NCBI GenBank assembly: GCA_030431525.1
Contig: JAUIJC010000005.1
Coordinates: 1 to 64,000, forward strand
Direction: 5' to 3'
DNA: 64,000 nt
DNA from: Bacteroidia bacterium
Lineage (GTDB): Bacteria; Bacteroidota; Bacteroidia; Cytophagales; JAAEPT01
A program made the position numbers and the translations under genes. This document shows positions 36,719-49,677 of this stretch, in pieces; the stretch's first letter is position 1; every line of letters starts with the position of its first letter. The notes beneath the pieces were generated by a model. That model saw only the letters and a list, made by a program, of their open reading frames with translations. It did no database searches and had not been told where the DNA came from.

Positions 36719-38581
36719 TTAGGCGATATTTTGGGAGGTTACAGGGTTTTTGGTGTAAACCAATTGCTGGATTTTCCGTTTCAAAGTCTCCTGCTCCAAC
36801 GGCTTGGTCAAAAAGTCGGAGGCTCCCAATTCCAAAATATGCTGTTTGGCGTCTGAGAATGCATCGGCCGTTAAGGCCAAAATGGGCGTCTCGTGGTTCT
36901 GAGTTCGATTTTCTGGATCCTTGATGATTTGGGTGGCCTCATAGCCATTCACCACAGGCATTTGAAGATCCATCAGGATTAGGTCAAACTTTTTCTTGTG
37001 GGCTTGGTCAATGGCCTCCTGTCCGTTGTTGGCACAAGTTACCTTGACGCCCCAGTTCTCAAGCATTTGGTTCACGACCAGCTGATTGAGCGGATAGTCG
37101 TCTACCACTAATACTTCCAAGTTTTCCAGTGGCGTGTCCTCAATGGCTTCGTTTCCAGCGTAACCTTCTTTTGTTTCCAAGGACAAGTAGAGCGAAATGG
37201 TCGTGCCTTTTCCAAGAATACTGTTCAGCTGGAGGCTTCCTCCGTGAAGCTCAACCATTTTTTTGGTGATGGACAGGCCAAGACCAATTCCTCCAAACTG
37301 GCGTTTTGAATCATTTTCAATTTGGTTGAAGCTCTCAAAAATCTTAAGCTGTTTTTCCTCAGGAATGCCAATGCCAGTATCCTTGACCATGAATCGCAGA
37401 AGCGTACACTTTGGGTTTCTGGCAATCGCCGAAATGTCAACGCTAATGCTTCCTTTGTTCGTGAATTTTACGGCATTGTGACAAATGTGTGCAAGCACCT
37501 GCTGGATGCGTTGGGCATCTCCCCGAAGCAGAGGAATTTCAGCGTCAAGATTTAGCTGAAAATCCAATCCTTTTTCTTCACAGAGTTCGTCCAGTTCCCG
37601 CCAAAGCGGTTTGAATTCTTGCTGTAGGTTGAAATCATCCAAATTCAAAGACAGCCTTTTCGCCTGTAAGTCAGAGAAATCAATGATGGATTCTACTACT
37701 CGTTGCAGGTTTTTGGAAGAGGCATGAATGGCTCTGATTTTTTGACCCTTAGAGGTGGAGGAGGTTTCCTCGTTAAGCAGTTCCGCCATGCCCAAAATGG
37801 TGTTCAGCGGAGTGCGAATCTCATGCGTAATTTTGGAAAGGAATTCTGTCCGAAGCCGTGCGGAGGTTTCGATTTCCTTTTTCTCCAGTTCCAAGGCCAC
37901 TTTTTGCTGGGTAGAACGATTGAGTTTAGCCAACAAACGTTCCTGCTCTTTATGATGCTTTTGGAGCTCCTTGTATTGTTGGAGGTTGTTTTCAGCGATA
38001 TCCCTTAGTTCCTTTTCCGCTTTGGTATTCTCCCTGATAAAAATGTAGGAGAAGATGCAAACCAGCGAAATGGGAATAAAAGTAGAGGTGTAATGAAGGA
38101 TGTTGATGGAAAGCTCGTCAAGCTTAATGAAAGCCCACGTATCCACGAGGTTGTACTCCAGAATGCTCCATGAACCCAGCGTGGCAAGGATGGAAATGGC
38201 CAAATGTTTTGGGTGTTGGAAGCCGAAAATGAAAAATGGTGAGAGCGCTACCAAGAAGAAGTAGTAGTGCAGTCCCGCAAATCGCCCAGTGATGCCAGCG
38301 AAATATGTGATCATCACATTGAAAAAGAATACCTGAAAGCTTCGGCCCCATAGCCCGTACCCATTTTTATTGAGAAAATAGGTGATGGTGATTAATGGAG
38401 CCGTACAGCTAAGAAGGAGCGCAAATACATAGTTGCCAAGCGCCCAATGGGTCAAGGCATAGGCCAAACAGAAGAAAGTCTCGATGGCACAGGCAAAATT
38501 ACTGATGTAGATTTTGCGTCGTTCCTCGGTGCTTTCGTAGTACTGAAGTCCTTGATGGAGTGTTGAAGACAAATAATCCAT
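36719..38581 (-). CDS. Hybrid sensor histidine kinase/response regulator (620 aa)
   Basis: The N-terminal membrane part has about six helices (residues 25-195, no large periplasmic loop), then a coiled coil (200-245). The HisKA domain has FLSKITHEIRTPLNTILGMAEL (phospho-acceptor His about 261), and the ATP-binding domain has HNAVKFTNKG (N box), DTGIGIPEEKQ (G1) and FGGIGLGLSITKKMVELHGG (G2). A C-terminal receiver carries VLVVDDYPLNQLV, LILMDLQMP (phospho-Asp) and LTKPLEQE. All catalytic boxes are intact. The ATG at 38581 is preferred to a GTG at 38611. There is no obvious partner regulator beside it, so output probably passes through another protein. Confidence 0.92.
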   Translation of the reverse strand: MDYLSSTLHQGLQYYESTEERRKIYISNFACAIETFFCLAYALTHWALGNYVFALLLSCTAPLITITYFLNKNGYGLWGRSFQVFFFNVMITYFAGITGRFAGLHYYFFLVALSPFFIFGFQHPKHLAISILATLGSWSILEYNLVDTWAFIKLDELSINILHYTSTFIPISLVCIFSYIFIRENTKAEKELRDIAENNLQQYKELQKHHKEQERLLAKLNRSTQQKVALELEKKEIETSARLRTEFLSKITHEIRTPLNTILGMAELLNEETSSTSKGQKIRAIHASSKNLQRVVESIIDFSDLQAKRLSLNLDDFNLQQEFKPLWRELDELCEEKGLDFQLNLDAEIPLLRGDAQRIQQVLAHICHNAVKFTNKGSISVDISAIARNPKCTLLRFMVKDTGIGIPEEKQLKIFESFNQIENDSKRQFGGIGLGLSITKKMVELHGGSLQLNSILGKGTTISLYLSLETKEGYAGNEAIEDTPLENLEVLVVDDYPLNQLVVNQMLENWGVKVTCANNGQEAIDQAHKKKFDLILMDLQMPVVNGYEATQIIKDPENRTQNHETPILALTADAFSDAKQHILELGASDFLTKPLEQETLKRKIQQLVYTKNPVTSQNIA

Positions 38582-38687
38582 AGTAAAAAGTGGACTTAGG
38601 GTTATACCCACATTACTACGGATTGTTGTGTTGAAAGGTTGTGGCTAAATGTGTTAAAAATTAGATCTTAACAGAGTTTCTTGCCCC

Positions 38688-39478: not shown

Positions 39479-41941
39479 ATGAAAATTCACGAAGTAGAAA
39501 AAATCATTGACGGCCGTTTGGTGCGCACTCTTCCTGAGGGAGAGGTGAGCATTTCAAACTTGATGATTGACACCCGAAAGGTAGCGCATCCCGCTTCCTC
39601 CATTTTTTTTGCGATCAAAGGGCCACAGCATGATGGGCATGACTATTTGGAGCAGGCCTATCGCCAAGGGGTCCGCGCTTTTGTGGTTTCGGATGAACAC
39701 CGACTTACGGATGCTATTCAGGCGGATGTCTTGAAAGTGGATGATGTTGTGCAGGCGCTTCAGCTTTTGGTGGCACACCATCGGGCCGAGTTTTCTATCC
39801 CAGTCATAGGCATCACGGGGAGTAATGGAAAGACGCAAATCAAGGAATGGCTGGCGCAATTGCTCCAACGACAGCTTCGTATTGTCCGAAGCCCAAAGAG
39901 CTATAACTCCCAAGTGGGTGTGCCGTTGTCAGTGTGGCCATTGGGTCCACAAGATGAATTGGGAATTTTTGAGGCAGGGATTTCTGAGCGAGGTGAAATG
40001 CGCCGATTGGAGCGTGTTATTCGTCCAACGATTGGTTTGCTTACCAATATTGGAACGGCGCATGACAGTGGATTCTCAAATTGGGAGGAAAAATTGGAGG
40101 AAAAACTCCAGTTGTTTTCCCGCTCGGAGGTGGTGGTTTATTGTAAGGATCATGAGTTTGTTGATCAGAACATTACTTCAAAAGACCGCCCTTTCAAGAC
40201 TTTTACTTGGGGAAAGGTTAAGGACGCCGACATTCATGTTGTTTCATTGAACAAGAAGGCCAAGGAAACGGAAATCACATTGGATTATCAACATGAACGG
40301 CTCAGCTTTTGGCTTCCGTTTGTGGATAACGCCTCCATAGAAAACTGTCTACATTGTTTGGCGTTAGCCTTTTGGTTGGGCTTGGATATGCATCAGGTAG
40401 GGCACGAATTGGAGCGCCTGCGCCCGATTGCCATGCGCATGGAACTGAAACAGGGTGTGTATAACAGCCAAATTATTGACGATAGTTATAACAATGATTT
40501 GGCTGGTCTGCGCATCGCTCTGGATTTTATGAACCAGCAGGGTGGACACCTTGGGAAAGCATTGATTTTGTCCGATGTGCTCCAGTCCAGTTTGCCTGAC
40601 CAATACCTCTATGCTGAGGTGGCCACCTTATTGAAGGATAAGCATGTGGAGCAATTTATTGGCATTGGTCCAGCCCTTAGCGAGCACAAGAATTTATTCC
40701 CAAAAGACAGTCAGTTTTACGATTCCACAGCGCATTTCCTTCAAGACTTTGATCGCCAACAACTGGCCTCCAAGGTGGTTTTAATCAAAGGCGCCCGTGC
40801 TTTCAAATTCGAACAGGTAGTCAAGGCTTTGCAGTTGAAAGTCCATCGGACAGTATTGGAAGTGGATTTGGATGCGTTGGCGAATAACCTGAATTACTAT
40901 CGTTCCTTGTTGGAGCCTTCCACCAAGGTCATGGTCATGGTCAAAGCCTTTGCTTATGGTAGTGGAAGCTTGGAGGTTGCTCGTTTTTTAGAGTTTAATC
41001 AGGTGGATTACTTGGCTGTGGCCTATGCGGACGAGGGCATTCGACTTCGAGAAAACGGCATTAGCTTGCCCATTATGGTCATGAATCCCCCAGAAGGCGT
41101 TTATGAGCAGTTGGCTGAATATCGCCTTGAGGCAGAGGTGTATTCCTTTGGGCAATTGCAGTCTATTTCCTCTTATTTCGGTTCACAGTGCCTCTTTGCG
41201 CGCATCCATATAAAGCTGGATACGGGCATGCACCGCTTGGGTTTTGCTCCAGAGCAAATAGATGAATTGGTTCGCTACCTCAAGGAAAATCCTCATTTGA
41301 AGGTTTGTTCTGCTTTTACCCATTTGAGCAGTGCGGATGAGCCCCAAGCCGATGATTTTACTCGTGAGCAGTTAGAGATTTTCTCCAAAGGCGCTAAAAA
41401 GCTGGAAAAAGGGCTGGGTTACTCCTTCCTGAAACATGCCCTGAATTCGGCAGGAATCAAGCGTTTTGGCAGTTCCCAGTTTGATATGGTGCGTTTGGGG
41501 ATTGGGCTCTACGGCGTTGGTGTGGATGAGGAGTCTGGTTCGCGATTGCAACGCGTGAGCACCCTGAAAACTTCTGTCACTCAAGTCAAAAATCTCAAAG
41601 CGGGAACGCCTGTGGGTTATGGCAGAAAAGGGGTGATGGACAAGGATGGTCAGGTGGCTACGATTGCCATTGGCTATGCCGATGGGTTTGATCGCCGATT
41701 TAGCAATGGAGTAGGCAAGGTGGTGATTAACGGCCACATGGTGCCCGTGATTGGCAATGTGTGCATGGATATGACCATGGTGGACGTTACGGGCCTTGAT
41801 GTGAAGGAGGGCGATGAGGTTATCATTTTTGGTAAATCTCCATCCTTGGGCCAGCAGGCTTCCGCTATTGGAACGATACCCTATGAATTGTTAACCAATG
41901 TAGGGGAGCGCGTAAAGCGGGTTTTCTTCAGTGAGAGCTAA
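39479..41941 (+). CDS. murF-alr: Bifunctional MurF / alanine racemase (820 aa)
   Basis: This is a fusion of two peptidoglycan enzymes, usual in Bacteroidota. Residues 1-450: Mur ligase MurF, adding D-Ala-D-Ala to UDP-MurNAc-tripeptide, with ATP loop GITGSNGKTQIKEWL (about 113-127), NIGTAHDSGF and IIDDSYNNDLAGL. Residues 455-820: PLP-dependent alanine racemase supplying D-Ala, with the catalytic Lys in MVMVKAFAYGSG (about 485), HIKLDTGMHRLGF, and the C-terminal catalytic Tyr/GY region VGYGRKG and IAIGYADGFDRRF, followed by GNVCMDMTMVDVT. Both active sites look complete, so the protein makes and uses D-Ala units. A heptad terminator follows. Confidence 0.96.
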   Translation: MKIHEVEKIIDGRLVRTLPEGEVSISNLMIDTRKVAHPASSIFFAIKGPQHDGHDYLEQAYRQGVRAFVVSDEHRLTDAIQADVLKVDDVVQALQLLVAHHRAEFSIPVIGITGSNGKTQIKEWLAQLLQRQLRIVRSPKSYNSQVGVPLSVWPLGPQDELGIFEAGISERGEMRRLERVIRPTIGLLTNIGTAHDSGFSNWEEKLEEKLQLFSRSEVVVYCKDHEFVDQNITSKDRPFKTFTWGKVKDADIHVVSLNKKAKETEITLDYQHERLSFWLPFVDNASIENCLHCLALAFWLGLDMHQVGHELERLRPIAMRMELKQGVYNSQIIDDSYNNDLAGLRIALDFMNQQGGHLGKALILSDVLQSSLPDQYLYAEVATLLKDKHVEQFIGIGPALSEHKNLFPKDSQFYDSTAHFLQDFDRQQLASKVVLIKGARAFKFEQVVKALQLKVHRTVLEVDLDALANNLNYYRSLLEPSTKVMVMVKAFAYGSGSLEVARFLEFNQVDYLAVAYADEGIRLRENGISLPIMVMNPPEGVYEQLAEYRLEAEVYSFGQLQSISSYFGSQCLFARIHIKLDTGMHRLGFAPEQIDELVRYLKENPHLKVCSAFTHLSSADEPQADDFTREQLEIFSKGAKKLEKGLGYSFLKHALNSAGIKRFGSSQFDMVRLGIGLYGVGVDEESGSRLQRVSTLKTSVTQVKNLKAGTPVGYGRKGVMDKDGQVATIAIGYADGFDRRFSNGVGKVVINGHMVPVIGNVCMDMTMVDVTGLDVKEGDEVIIFGKSPSLGQQASAIGTIPYELLTNVGERVKRVFFSES

Positions 41942-45344: not shown

Positions 45345-45767
45345 TTAAGCGGCATCGTCTTTCTGCTCGAAAAAGGTCTTTATGATTTCACTCACCTTAT
45401 CTATGGTCAGCGGTTTCTTGAGGAATTTTTTCACATCCTCATATTGCAATGAGCGTGTTTTGTCGTCTGGATTCAGAGAGGTGGTCAACATCACAACCGT
45501 GCTTTGATCCTTCTGATCCACATCGAGTTGGTGATAATCCTTTAAAAATTCCCAACCGTCCATGCCTGGCATATTAATGTCAAGGAAGATGAGCTCAGGA
45601 ATCTTATTGGGGTCCTTATGGATTTCCTTTAGGTAGGACAATGCTTTTTGGGCTTCGTCGAAGACCAAGATCCGTTTGGTACAGTCTGTTTCGCCAATGA
45701 TGAATTCATTGAAAAAATTAGTGGGTTCATCATCGTCAATAAGCATGATGCAGTTCAGTTTCTCCAT
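45345..45767 (-). CDS. Single-domain response regulator (140 aa)
   Basis: A receiver domain only, of the Rcp1/CheY-like kind with no output domain. Acidic pocket in MLIDDDEPTNFFNE (about 8-21), phospho-acceptor Asp in ELIFLDINMPGMDGWEFL (about 60), Thr in VMLTTSLNPDD (about 94) and Lys in KFLKKPLTIDK (about 115). It lies 114 bases downstream of the two paralogous sensor kinases on the same strand, and is the likely receiver for that pair. The ATG at 45767 is chosen because related regulators start at this position; an ATG at 45785 is also possible. Confidence 0.9.
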   Translation of the reverse strand: MEKLNCIMLIDDDEPTNFFNEFIIGETDCTKRILVFDEAQKALSYLKEIHKDPNKIPELIFLDINMPGMDGWEFLKDYHQLDVDQKDQSTVVMLTTSLNPDDKTRSLQYEDVKKFLKKPLTIDKVSEIIKTFFEQKDDAA

Positions 45768-45880
45768 TTTCTGCACTTTCGTCATTGGGGTATTATTGTG
45801 TACGAAAGAAATGGAGATGCATTTAACCCGCTTCGTTTTTTATGGGGAATTTCCAGTTTTGGGAATTTTGGAAGGCCATC

Positions 45881-47152
45881 TTACAGCCCTTGAGGCAGGG
45901 TAAAGCAGATACAGGTGCCATTTTCCTCACTACAATCAATCCAGATGTCACCGCCATGACGCTCCACAATTTTTTGGCATTGCGAGAGTGAAATCCGCGA
46001 TTCGTCCATGTATTCCGAGGATTCATTGAGGCCAAAGGGATGAAAAATATCCCGCCATTGATGCTGTGGAATGATCCTTCCTTTGTACCGAAAGCAGATT
46101 TTCCACAAGCCCTTTTCATCCTCAAGATCAATCGTAATGCGTTGTTTTTCACGTTGGGTGGATTGCCGAATGGCATAAGAAATCAAATTCTGGAAGATGA
46201 TCCGCAGTCCCACGCTATTGGCGACTATGGTGGATTTAGTCTGCTGTTGGAAATCGATTTGGGTGTCATGTTCCGTGATAAGGCTCCGAATATCGTTTTT
46301 CACCTCTTGTAGAATCTCCTCGATATCATTGTGATGGAGTTCAAAATCTTGACCTACTCGCAAGTATTCCAGAATGTTATGGATGTTTTGAGACATCCGT
46401 TGGGCGGTGTTTGTAACCGCCTCAATTTGCTTTTCAATGTCGTCTTGACTCTCCTCAGGTAGCCGTGTTTTTAAAATTTCGGTGAACATGGAGATATTTC
46501 GAAGTGGCTCCTGAAGGTCATGAGAAGTAATGTGAATAAACTCGTTCAGTTCCGTATTGCTTTGTTCGAGCTCCGAGTTTTTGGACTCTAATGCGTCCAT
46601 TTTAATGGTTAGTTGTTTGACGTAGATATTGGCTGATATCACAATGATCAAGGAGGAGAATAATAGCAGTGTGCCATCCAATGCCCATGTTATGACTTCA
46701 TGATCCAGATGTTTTAAATCATGGTTGATTATTAGTTTTTTTGATGAGTATAAGTAGGCGAATATGACATAAAGTACTATGGAGATAGAGAATGAAAATA
46801 TGGTTTCCTTTTTAGAGGATGTAAAGTAGGAGAAGATGGGGATTAGAACCAGTAGCGTTTTGGAAGGTGAAAAAATGCCAAAAACGACAAAGCCATTTAT
46901 TGCTCCTATTAAGAGTAGGGCAATTAGTGTGTAGACTATTTTGGTGAAATGTATTGAATTCCTGAATACATAGAGGAATGTGAGTGTTATTGGAATGGTT
47001 AATTCAATTATAAATATTGGTTGAAAACCAAGTATAATTACTCTAATGGTGCTGTTTAATATGTCAATTAATGAAAATACAACACTGAATAAAAGGCTCG
47101 TGTGAACAATCTTTTTCCGAATGATGTACAGTTCTTTACTTATAGGTTTCAT
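45881..47152 (-). CDS. Sensor kinase KA: His present, ATP site degenerate (423 aa)
   Basis: Six hydrophobic helices (about residues 18-180) lead to a coiled coil and a HisKA domain with ITSHDLQEPLRN (His211, codon 46520-46522). The ATP-binding domain is damaged in every nucleotide-contacting box: the N box reads FQNLISYAIR (320-329, second Asn replaced by Tyr); where DNGIGIP should be there is FRYKGRIIP (354-362); and the glycine-rich G2 is replaced by ESRISLSQ (384-391). Flanking sequence (IVERHGGDIWID) is well kept, so the domain is folded but probably cannot bind ATP. The start is 4 bases after the stop of the paralogous kinase upstream. Length and topology match the paralog closely. Confidence 0.88.
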   Translation of the reverse strand: MKPISKELYIIRKKIVHTSLLFSVVFSLIDILNSTIRVIILGFQPIFIIELTIPITLTFLYVFRNSIHFTKIVYTLIALLLIGAINGFVVFGIFSPSKTLLVLIPIFSYFTSSKKETIFSFSISIVLYVIFAYLYSSKKLIINHDLKHLDHEVITWALDGTLLLFSSLIIVISANIYVKQLTIKMDALESKNSELEQSNTELNEFIHITSHDLQEPLRNISMFTEILKTRLPEESQDDIEKQIEAVTNTAQRMSQNIHNILEYLRVGQDFELHHNDIEEILQEVKNDIRSLITEHDTQIDFQQQTKSTIVANSVGLRIIFQNLISYAIRQSTQREKQRITIDLEDEKGLWKICFRYKGRIIPQHQWRDIFHPFGLNESSEYMDESRISLSQCQKIVERHGGDIWIDCSEENGTCICFTLPQGL

Positions 47153-47156
47153 CTTA

Positions 47157-48425
47157 TTAGTCAGCAAGTAAAGTGAAGTGTACACTGGTTCCGTTCATTT
47201 CGGATTGGTCAATCCATATTTTTCCGCCATGTCGATCAACTATTTTTTTGCAAAGGGTCAGTCCAATGCCATTGCCTTTGGATAATTTTCGAGTATGTAT
47301 CCTGTAAAACAGTGAGAATACTTTTTCTCGATGGGATGCTGGAATCCCAATGCCGTTATCCGCAATGGTGAACTGCCAATGTTTTTTATTTTTGATTGAT
47401 TTAATGCGAATTATGGGGTTTTTATCTGCTTGCTGAAACTTGATAGCGTTGTCAATAATGTTCAGGAAAAGCAAGCGAACTGATTCATGGTTCCCCGTTA
47501 TTTCTGGTAGTCTATTCTCAAAGGATATATCAATTGGGTTGTTGTCGTATTTTTTGGTCAATTCTGTTATTGCTTCTTCTGCAATCCTTTGTGTGTCAAT
47601 AGACTCTGTTTTTATATTGTTATTTGTGATGTGGTTATAAGTGGTGAGGTCTTCAATGAGGGAATCAATGCGTTGGCTGGCTTCTGTAAGGTTTTCTATG
47701 CTTTTTTTAGAAATAGAGTCGCTAAAGTGTTGTTCGTACTTATTGATGTTTTCTATAGAATCTGAAACAGTAATGGAAGGGGTTTTTAAGTCAAGTGATA
47801 AGGTGCTTGAAATGCTTGATAGCTCTTTGTTTTTATGTGTTAGTTCGCTGTTTTTTTGATCAAGTGAATTGATGATTTTTATTAAGCTACTATTGTAGTT
47901 TTTGGTGATGCTGATGATGGATATACACATGAATAATAAGATGAATCCATCTGTGAACCATGAGTCAGCGTTGTAGGGAAGGAGGGTGATGTCTACTTTG
48001 CTGTGTAAAAAGTTATTTATGTGGAGGTATGCGAAAAGGGAATAGATAGAAAAGCTGGCTATAAACGTGTAAATCGTTTGGCGTATGCTTAGAATAAAAA
48101 AGGCGAATACAGGAATGATTACGATGATGTTTTTTGCAAATGAGGCAAAGCCAAACCCCCTTAGTCCGTTAATCGTTCCAATCAACAGTGCGATGATTAC
48201 GGTTATTATTTTGGTTTGTAGGGATAGTTTTTTTCTGAAAAAGTGGGTGGTGAAAATGGAAATTACGGTAATGTAAACGGGGACTAAATGATATATTTTA
48301 TTGATGCGTATGCATATGATTGTTCCGATAATCAATATTATCGTCCCGATGATGGTGGCATACCGCAATATTGAATCAGTAATTCTGTTCTTGAGTTCTA
48401 TATGCGCCTCGTGACTGGGTTTCAT
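47157..48425 (-). CDS. Sensor kinase KB: ATP site intact, His replaced by Leu (422 aa)
   Basis: Same layout as the kinase just downstream: six membrane helices (about 20-175), coiled coil, HisKA and HATPase domains. The H-box reads TLSLDLKTPSIT, with Leu at residue 211 (codon CTT, complement of 47793-47795) where the phospho-acceptor His belongs. The ATP-binding domain is textbook: NIIDNAIKF (N box), DNGIGIP (356-362), FSLFYRIH (F box) and GNGIGLTLCKKIVDRHGG (G2 from 384). It should bind ATP and phosphorylate in trans but cannot autophosphorylate on itself. The sequence in the membrane part is markedly AT-rich. The ATG at 48425 is preferred to an upstream in-frame start. Confidence 0.9.
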   Translation of the reverse strand: MKPSHEAHIELKNRITDSILRYATIIGTIILIIGTIICIRINKIYHLVPVYITVISIFTTHFFRKKLSLQTKIITVIIALLIGTINGLRGFGFASFAKNIIVIIPVFAFFILSIRQTIYTFIASFSIYSLFAYLHINNFLHSKVDITLLPYNADSWFTDGFILLFMCISIISITKNYNSSLIKIINSLDQKNSELTHKNKELSSISSTLSLDLKTPSITVSDSIENINKYEQHFSDSISKKSIENLTEASQRIDSLIEDLTTYNHITNNNIKTESIDTQRIAEEAITELTKKYDNNPIDISFENRLPEITGNHESVRLLFLNIIDNAIKFQQADKNPIIRIKSIKNKKHWQFTIADNGIGIPASHREKVFSLFYRIHTRKLSKGNGIGLTLCKKIVDRHGGKIWIDQSEMNGTSVHFTLLAD

Positions 48426-48545: not shown

Positions 48546-48587
48546 AAATCGCCAGCCCCAATGCACTTTGATTGGGACTGGCGATTT
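48546..48587 (-). terminator. Terminator of the OB-fold lipoprotein gene
   Basis: AAATCGCCAG (48546-48555) pairs with CTGGCGATTT (48578-48587), with an inner CCCAAT/ATTGGG stem. On the minus strand it ends in a T run. It separates the gene ending at 48606 from the kinase pair. Confidence 0.88.
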
Positions 48588-48605: not shown

Positions 48606-49592
48606 TCAGTAAATCAGGCAATTCTCAACAGACACGGTTTCTGTCACGCTGTTGATGCCTTCGCAGGTGCCTACCAAGGTTAGTTTTTCGCCTTTTTTCA
48701 GGGAGGATGTCTTTTTGTCGTTCGGGAGGTAGCAGTTCACTTCACCGAAGAAGTCGCCAGATTTTAGGATGGCGTAAGGCTTGCCCATCATGTCCTTGCT
48801 GACGCCTTGCAAACGGCCAGTTACGGCAATGCGCTTGCCTTTCATTTTGTTGTCAGCCGAAACTTCATTTTCCTCATAGGCCTTGTAAAGGTCTTTGGAG
48901 TCGATGGCCATTTCATAATGAAGTTCGCTATCCTTGTTAACCTTCCCCAGTTGGTCGTTCAAGGCATCTTGTTGCCAGAGGTGAGGATAAAGCAAATCAT
49001 CTTTGCGGGAGCTTTTCATGATTTCCTTGCCACGGGCGTGGACAAGTTCCTCAAGCAAATCTTCGTTCTTGCTGTTCAAGGCACCAAAGGCGTAAAGCAG
49101 GTTGAATGGCTCCACTTTTTCATCTCCTACGACCTTTTCTTCTGTCTGATAAAGACCGTATTTGGTTTTGTATCGGTCAAAAATCTCCAAAATATCTGAG
49201 GAGAAACCACCGCAACCATGAAGCGATGCTACGAGTTCGCAAAACTTCACATGCTCCTTGTTGCCTTTGCGTTTAAAATCACGAGTGAGTTCGTATTTGC
49301 CGTTTGTGCGCAGAGAGCCCAATGAATAGCCAAGGTTTTCGACCAATGGGAGGTATTCTGCGGTGACCACTTTTTCAGTCACCAATGTTTTATAGAGTTC
49401 GTTGGCTTCAATCTGCTCTAACAAGGCAGTACGCTCTGCACTGGCTTTTTCTGGGGCTTTGTCGCCCACGACAGCTTGAGCTGTTTTTTGGTAGTCGTCA
49501 AAGTTTTCTGTGGCTGACTGTTCGCCTCCACCACAGCTGAAAAGGGTGCCTGTTAGGGCAAGCGCAAGAAAATATTTGTTTTGATGACGCAT
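48606..49592 (-). CDS. Lipoprotein with C-terminal OB-fold (tRNA_anti-like) (328 aa)
   Basis: The signal ends LFSC (Cys about 20), then GGGE. The central part (about 40-225) is helical and contains EHVKFCELVASLHGCGGF, without a known family. The last 90 residues (LYKAYEENEVSADNKMKGKR onward, through VTGRLQGVSKDMMGKP, EVNCYLPND and KKGEKLTLVGTCEG) match the tRNA_anti-like OB-fold found in many secreted bacterial proteins, where it is not known to bind tRNA. It is probably periplasmic or surface-attached. The ATG at 49592 is chosen over an adjacent TTG. Confidence 0.75.
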   Translation of the reverse strand: MRHQNKYFLALALTGTLFSCGGGEQSATENFDDYQKTAQAVVGDKAPEKASAERTALLEQIEANELYKTLVTEKVVTAEYLPLVENLGYSLGSLRTNGKYELTRDFKRKGNKEHVKFCELVASLHGCGGFSSDILEIFDRYKTKYGLYQTEEKVVGDEKVEPFNLLYAFGALNSKNEDLLEELVHARGKEIMKSSRKDDLLYPHLWQQDALNDQLGKVNKDSELHYEMAIDSKDLYKAYEENEVSADNKMKGKRIAVTGRLQGVSKDMMGKPYAILKSGDFFGEVNCYLPNDKKTSSLKKGEKLTLVGTCEGINSVTETVSVENCLIY

Positions 49593-49677
49593 CAAAAAGA
49601 GGTTTTTGGGTTCGAAAGACGGGAAACAAATTACGGCTTTTTTGGTTCACAGGAGATTGGGGCGGTGTTCTTGTGGG

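Follow-up and report, generated by a model that had tools for sequence, protein, structure and literature searches.

Gene order and features

Within the window (the whole stretch of 64,000 nucleotides that was analysed), two adjacent genes for membrane histidine kinases, denoted here KB and KA, precede a gene for a single-domain response regulator (RR). On the minus strand the order is KB (48425-47157, 422 aa), KA (47152-45881, 423 aa) and RR (45785-45345, 146 aa), all three with intact reading frames; KB and KA are separated by 4 bp, and KA and RR by 95 bp. The coordinates, the lengths of 423 and 422 aa and the 4-bp gap in a preliminary description of this DNA are all reproduced; the end that it gave for the RR gene, 45345, also stands, but the start can be at 45785 instead of 45767. 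The features are the following.

48546..48587, minus strand: terminator-like hairpin with a 17-bp stem and a T tail, between the upstream gene and KB
47157..48425, minus strand: KB, membrane histidine kinase with an intact ATP-binding domain and Leu211 in place of the phospho-acceptor His (alignment, Pfam, AlphaFold2)
47793..47795, minus strand: KB codon 211, CTT (Leu), in the acceptor-His column (H in 190/196 relatives)
47340..47360, minus strand: KB G1 box DNGIGIP, intact (alignment)
47259..47276, minus strand: KB G2 box GNGIGL, intact (alignment)
45881..47152, minus strand: KA, membrane histidine kinase paralogue with an intact H-box (His211) and lost ATP-binding motifs (alignment, Pfam, AlphaFold2)
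46520..46522, minus strand: KA codon 211, CAT, phospho-acceptor His in SHDLQEPLR (alignment)
46175..46177, minus strand: KA Tyr326, replacing the second N-box Asn (N in 196/196 relatives)
46067..46087, minus strand: KA counterpart of the G1 box, YKGRIIP (alignment)
45986..46003, minus strand: KA counterpart of the G2 box, ESRISL (alignment)
45345..45785, minus strand: RR, single-domain response regulator with the acidic pocket and the phospho-Asp, Thr and Lys intact (sequence, Pfam)

Given the hairpin upstream of KB and the failure of a pattern search to reveal any terminator-like site on the same strand in the intergenic DNA of KB, KA and RR, the three genes look, on hairpin evidence, like one transcription unit. 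The GC content is 36.6% in KB and 39.2% in KA, compared with 45% in the window, and is uneven along KA (about 30-37% in the N-terminal part, near 42-46% in the C-terminal half). The gene upstream of the kinase pair (48606-49595) codes for a putative lipoprotein-like protein that has a tRNA_anti-like (OB-fold) domain at its C-terminus. A complete hybrid kinase (MASE7-like sensor, HisKA, HATPase_c and receiver) is encoded at a distance of 8 kb on the same strand (36719-38611), and the gene at 39479-41941 codes for an 820-aa protein in which Mur ligase domains are fused to alanine racemase.

Complementary loss of kinase functions

KA is matched by the Pfam HisKA profile (PF00512, 8.6e-9), and a pattern scan identifies its H-box as the sole copy of SHDLQEPLR in the genome. 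The ATP-site columns of the same protein carry the substitutions N326Y, D356Y, G360I, G384E, G386R and G388S. The preliminary description of these boxes as destroyed is correct with respect to the motif losses but needs correction in two respects: the counterpart of DNGIGIP is YKGRIIP instead of FRYKGRIIP and retains the first glycine, and the domain as a fold still scores above the Pfam cut-off (HATPase_c, PF02518, 4.3e-15). AlphaFold2, run with 39 sequences, predicts the ATP-domain fold with a pLDDT of about 95, lower in the lid only, which indicates compatibility with the fold rather than activity because the input alignment includes normal kinases. A Foldseek search with the KA model retrieves the DHp-ATP regions of ZraS, HK853, RpBphP2, RetS and DivL, the best solved structural match being RpBphP2 (PDB 8f71).

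In KB the pattern is reversed. HATPase_c matches at 4.5e-25 and the protein is canonical at every ATP-site column checked, in agreement with the earlier reading of an intact ATP-binding domain, whereas HisKA is not matched in the Pfam search even at E<=1. In a census of the genome, KB stands out by a strong HATPase_c match (91 bits) without a HisKA partner; the HATPase_c-only state is by itself not unique, since weaker HATPase_c-only proteins are also present. The codon for Leu211 (47795-47793) is indeed one base from CAT, and other conserved H-box positions are altered as well (F205I, L217S, R218I). KB retains Asp212 and Thr215 (LDLKTP), i.e., the D-x-x-T motif that is characteristic of HisKA-type phosphatases (PMC3591291), and any phosphatase activity of this type may reside on KB; KA has Glu215 (HDLQEP), a residue common at this position in complete relatives (112/196). 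The Foldseek matches of the KB model include HK853, CpxA and RpBphP2.

The two patterns were measured against 196 related kinase sequences, taken from the loci found in kinase searches and aligned over the DHp-ATP regions. The acceptor column holds H in 190 sequences, S in one, Q in one and a gap in four; this alignment and the direct alignment of KA with KB both bear out the assignment of His211 to KA and Leu211 to KB. At the columns that are degenerate in KA, the relatives are nearly invariant (the second N-box Asn in all 196; the G1 Asp, Tyr in KA, in 193; the second G1 Gly, Ile in KA, in 193; the three G2 Gly, replaced by Glu, Arg and Ser, in 190-191), and KB is canonical in the N-box, G1 and G2 alike. 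With cross-validated profiles, the DHp region scores 87.5 bits in KA (62nd lowest of the 196) and 44.3 bits in KB (16th lowest), and the ATP domain 84.4 bits in KA (10th lowest) and 140.9 bits in KB (77th lowest). Of the columns with at least 80% conservation, those in the DHp region are kept 8/8 by KA and 4/8 by KB; in the ATP domain, KB keeps 18/20 and KA 11/20, and the losses in KA are not significantly concentrated at the ATP-motif columns (Fisher p about 0.16-0.17). The AlphaFold2 models of KA and KB agree with each other and with the six-helix layout proposed earlier, the last of the six N-terminal helices running on into DHp helix 1. Judged by motifs and profiles, the loss of function halves in KA and KB is complementary, and standard motif criteria support the prediction, already made in the preliminary description, that neither protein is able to autophosphorylate alone.

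Origin and relatives

Over their full length KA and KB are 30% identical, and for each of them no other protein of the genome matches nearly as well as the partner. When 390 genomes of the order are searched with a profile of their N-terminal region, three give weak matches (E no better than 3.7e-15, all in one family), and 395 genomes of the class give none; the MASE11 profile (PF20969) scores 26.4 bits in KB and 21.1 in KA, both below the Pfam cut-off of 27.3, so the sensor region is at best MASE11-like. Given that this N-terminal region is common to KA and KB and found at comparable strength nowhere else in about 780 genomes, tandem duplication is the simplest reading and the most likely origin of the two genes. 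The locus has been seen in a single assembly. Searches for orthologs in contigs with KB as the query returned generic kinases, those with the KA+KB alignment no ortholog among the matches listed (the best of these at 35%), and those of plasmids and of the order and class genomes generic kinases or the weak matches of the one family.

In a tree of the catalytic domains, the branches of KA and KB are very long (8.4 and 5.2, where the median is 0.46), and the two proteins are not joined as sisters; KB falls near complete SHDLQEPLR kinases of two genomes, G050 and G055 (90/68), and the tree fails to place KA. Such acceleration fits subfunctionalisation and relaxed constraint equally. In the same two genomes, the genes of the two best relatives of RR (49% and 50%) follow those of complete SHDLQEPLR kinases at a distance of 17-26 bp, and these kinases are among the top matches of both KA and KB, which suggests that the ancestral unit probably consisted of one kinase and one RR.

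Loss of the acceptor histidine appears to be rare in this kinase subfamily. A scan of the 390 order genomes for non-His variants of xDLQEPLR, which gives the rate for mild cases only given that KB is too diverged to match, produced three hits, compared with 118 copies of the His form in a sample of 59 genomes. Two of the three are real kinases with His replaced by Glu, an intact ATP domain and no kinase neighbour; the third is not a kinase and was rejected. The two Glu kinases (SEDLQEPLR at L143:4529-5887 and SEDFQEPLR at L144:5030-6490) are related to each other, come from genomes of two species of one genus and form a separate class of acceptor-less kinases. In a kinase-like protein from Nostoc (L129:9064-10200), the acceptor His is replaced by Gln and the G1 box is altered (Ser, Glu), with G2 intact. 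Adjacent kinases in six genomes, G050 among them, were considered as further split pairs and rejected, as they keep the His and the ATP motifs wherever these columns are covered.

Comparison with known systems

Histidine kinases are usually homodimers, and the origin of heterodimeric, signal-integrating kinases has so far been inferred mostly from laboratory mutants. In EnvZ, acceptor-dead and ATP-dead mutants complement each other intermolecularly, with the same division of labour as in KA/KB, but these are artificial, laboratory-made mutants of one gene. CckA, the partner of the Caulobacter pseudo-histidine kinase DivL, is a complete kinase and not a tandem paralogue; DivL itself resembles KB in that the acceptor His is replaced. 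The RpBphP2/RpBphP3 pair is said to engage in trans-phosphorylation. Heterodimers of RpBphP2 and the neighbouring RpBphP3 are reported (PMC12329595), and the tandem arrangement and the H-box class are as in KA/KB; unlike KA and KB, both partners are complete kinases.

The closest parallel in the division of functions is the CheA3/CheA4 pair of Rhodobacter sphaeroides, in which neither protein autophosphorylates and the mixture labels CheA3 (PMC3591291). As in KA/KB, acceptor and ATP domain reside on separate proteins, neither of which should autophosphorylate alone, and a joint RR output is likewise proposed for KA/KB; however, CheA3 and CheA4 are HPt-type CheA proteins that lack whole domains, whereas KA and KB are HisKA membrane kinases of full length and the same layout, with one half of each degenerate in place. 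In Synechocystis, Hik36, Hik43 and the regulator Rre6 interact in two-hybrid tests (PMC7656254); this too is a split kinase, but it is a CheA homologue whose parts are encoded by two widely separated genes, and these are not tandem duplicates. According to SMART, 3.66% of HisKA proteins have no HATPase domain (PMC3591291). The preliminary description called the obligate split unusual, which has to be narrowed in view of the CheA3/CheA4 precedent (PMC3591291) and holds for the whole-protein tandem form: no published natural pair of tandem full-length kinases with reciprocal loss was found in the literature searched, which included few subscription papers. If the proposed reading is true, KA/KB would exemplify, outside the laboratory, subfunctionalisation in which reciprocal loss enforces heterodimerisation.

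Proposed mechanism and alternatives

By motif analysis, KA and KB are a split kinase, with catalysis assigned to one protein and the phospho-acceptor to the other. The mechanism to which we give slightly better than an even chance is that of a subfunctionalised pair, in which KB phosphorylates His211 of KA and KA passes the phosphate to RR. Tandem duplication of one kinase-RR unit would have given rise to a split two-component system KB-KA-RR, KB having retained ATP binding and phosphoryl transfer as the catalytic half but not the acceptor, and KA having retained the acceptor and the RR-facing half (His211 and the DHp region) and lost ATP binding. The ATP domain of KB would place phosphate on His211 of KA, most simply within a KA/KB heterodimer held together by the membrane, signalling-helix and DHp regions that the two have in common, and phosphorylated KA would transfer it to the adjacent single-domain RR. 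The sequence itself shows the complementary losses, the intact frames, the common N-terminal region and the operon-like gene order, and the retained folds are predicted; the duplication order, the heterodimer, the trans-phosphorylation, the partnership with RR and any AND behaviour are what we infer. The full form of the proposal, a natural obligate heterodimeric membrane kinase produced by duplication with reciprocal loss, with a separate sensor on each subunit and RR phosphorylation dependent on both (AND-type), is more tentative and falls somewhat short of an even chance.

Alternatively, KA could serve as a decoy or an HPt-like acceptor that receives its phosphate from another complete kinase, and KB an ATP-dependent modulator or RR phosphatase that never phosphorylates KA. 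We consider this unlikely, although several observations fit it: KB keeps the phosphatase-type Asp212/Thr215 pair where KA has Glu215, at least 15 other HisKA matches in the genome are possible sources of phosphate, solitary kinases with a lost His and an intact ATP domain exist (the L143 and L144 proteins), and pseudo-kinases of the DivL type are known (PMC4211667, PMC5361649). The motif contrast says little, however, given the frequency of Glu215 among the relatives; apart from KA, no kinase of the genome carries SHDLQEPLR and no paralogue has the N-terminal region of KB, and the 4-bp gap and the shared RR favour joint function.

Still less probable is decay, in which both duplicates would be turning into pseudogenes by drift and would show complementary losses by chance. 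The very long branches, the lack of an ortholog in the searches described and the A+T-rich composition of both genes are compatible with such drift, but two full-length open frames persist despite about 70% mutual divergence, the ATP motifs of KB are all intact, the DHp region of KA is canonical and the ATP-domain fold of KA is predicted with high confidence. Decay would also leave the retention of one complete half per copy unexplained. There is only a slim chance that KB phosphorylates the His of another kinase or phosphotransfer protein encoded elsewhere in the genome and is unrelated to KA in function; an intact ATP domain does need a substrate and other HisKA proteins are available, but none of these has the N-terminal and signalling-helix regions of KB, which KA does have. 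A one-base sequencing or assembly error that made CAT into CTT, conceivable for two codons so close in a single assembly, can for practical purposes be ruled out, given that the whole H-box of KB has drifted beyond HisKA detection and the losses in KA span many codons.

Dimer geometry

For the split-kinase mechanism, in which KB would phosphorylate KA within a heterodimer, the turn of the DHp hairpin is of particular relevance: a strictly cis turn would make the ATP domain of KB face its own Leu and defeat a simple heterodimer. The choice between cis and trans phosphorylation is set by this turn (PMC6798134, PMC12329595); a right-handed turn between DHp helices 1 and 2 goes with trans, left-handed bundles are associated with cis (PMC11021371), the related phytochrome kinase PsBphP1 has a left-handed turn (PMC11316798), and FixL phosphorylates in trans (PMC12329595). 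In both KA and KB the hairpin comprises 52 residues from position 211 to Tyr263 and aligns without gaps to those of HK853 (cis, same length) and RpBphP2 (8f71); the hairpin of KA is 8 residues longer than that of EnvZ in 4cti (trans). As judged from these alignments, trans geometry in KA/KB is uncertain.

KA and KB share the N-terminal and helix regions. The overall interpretation in the preliminary description is plausible and upheld in part: the analysis supports the complementary loss and, in addition, tandem duplication and an intact RR that seems to belong to the same operon. The charges at the heptad g/e positions of the signalling helix lend it no such support, as a simple count reveals no heterodimer preference (KA/KA 4, KA/KB 2, KB/KB 0). 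Given that a phosphorylated product is possible in one direction only, the KA/KB pair would allow cis and trans phosphorylation to be told apart cleanly.
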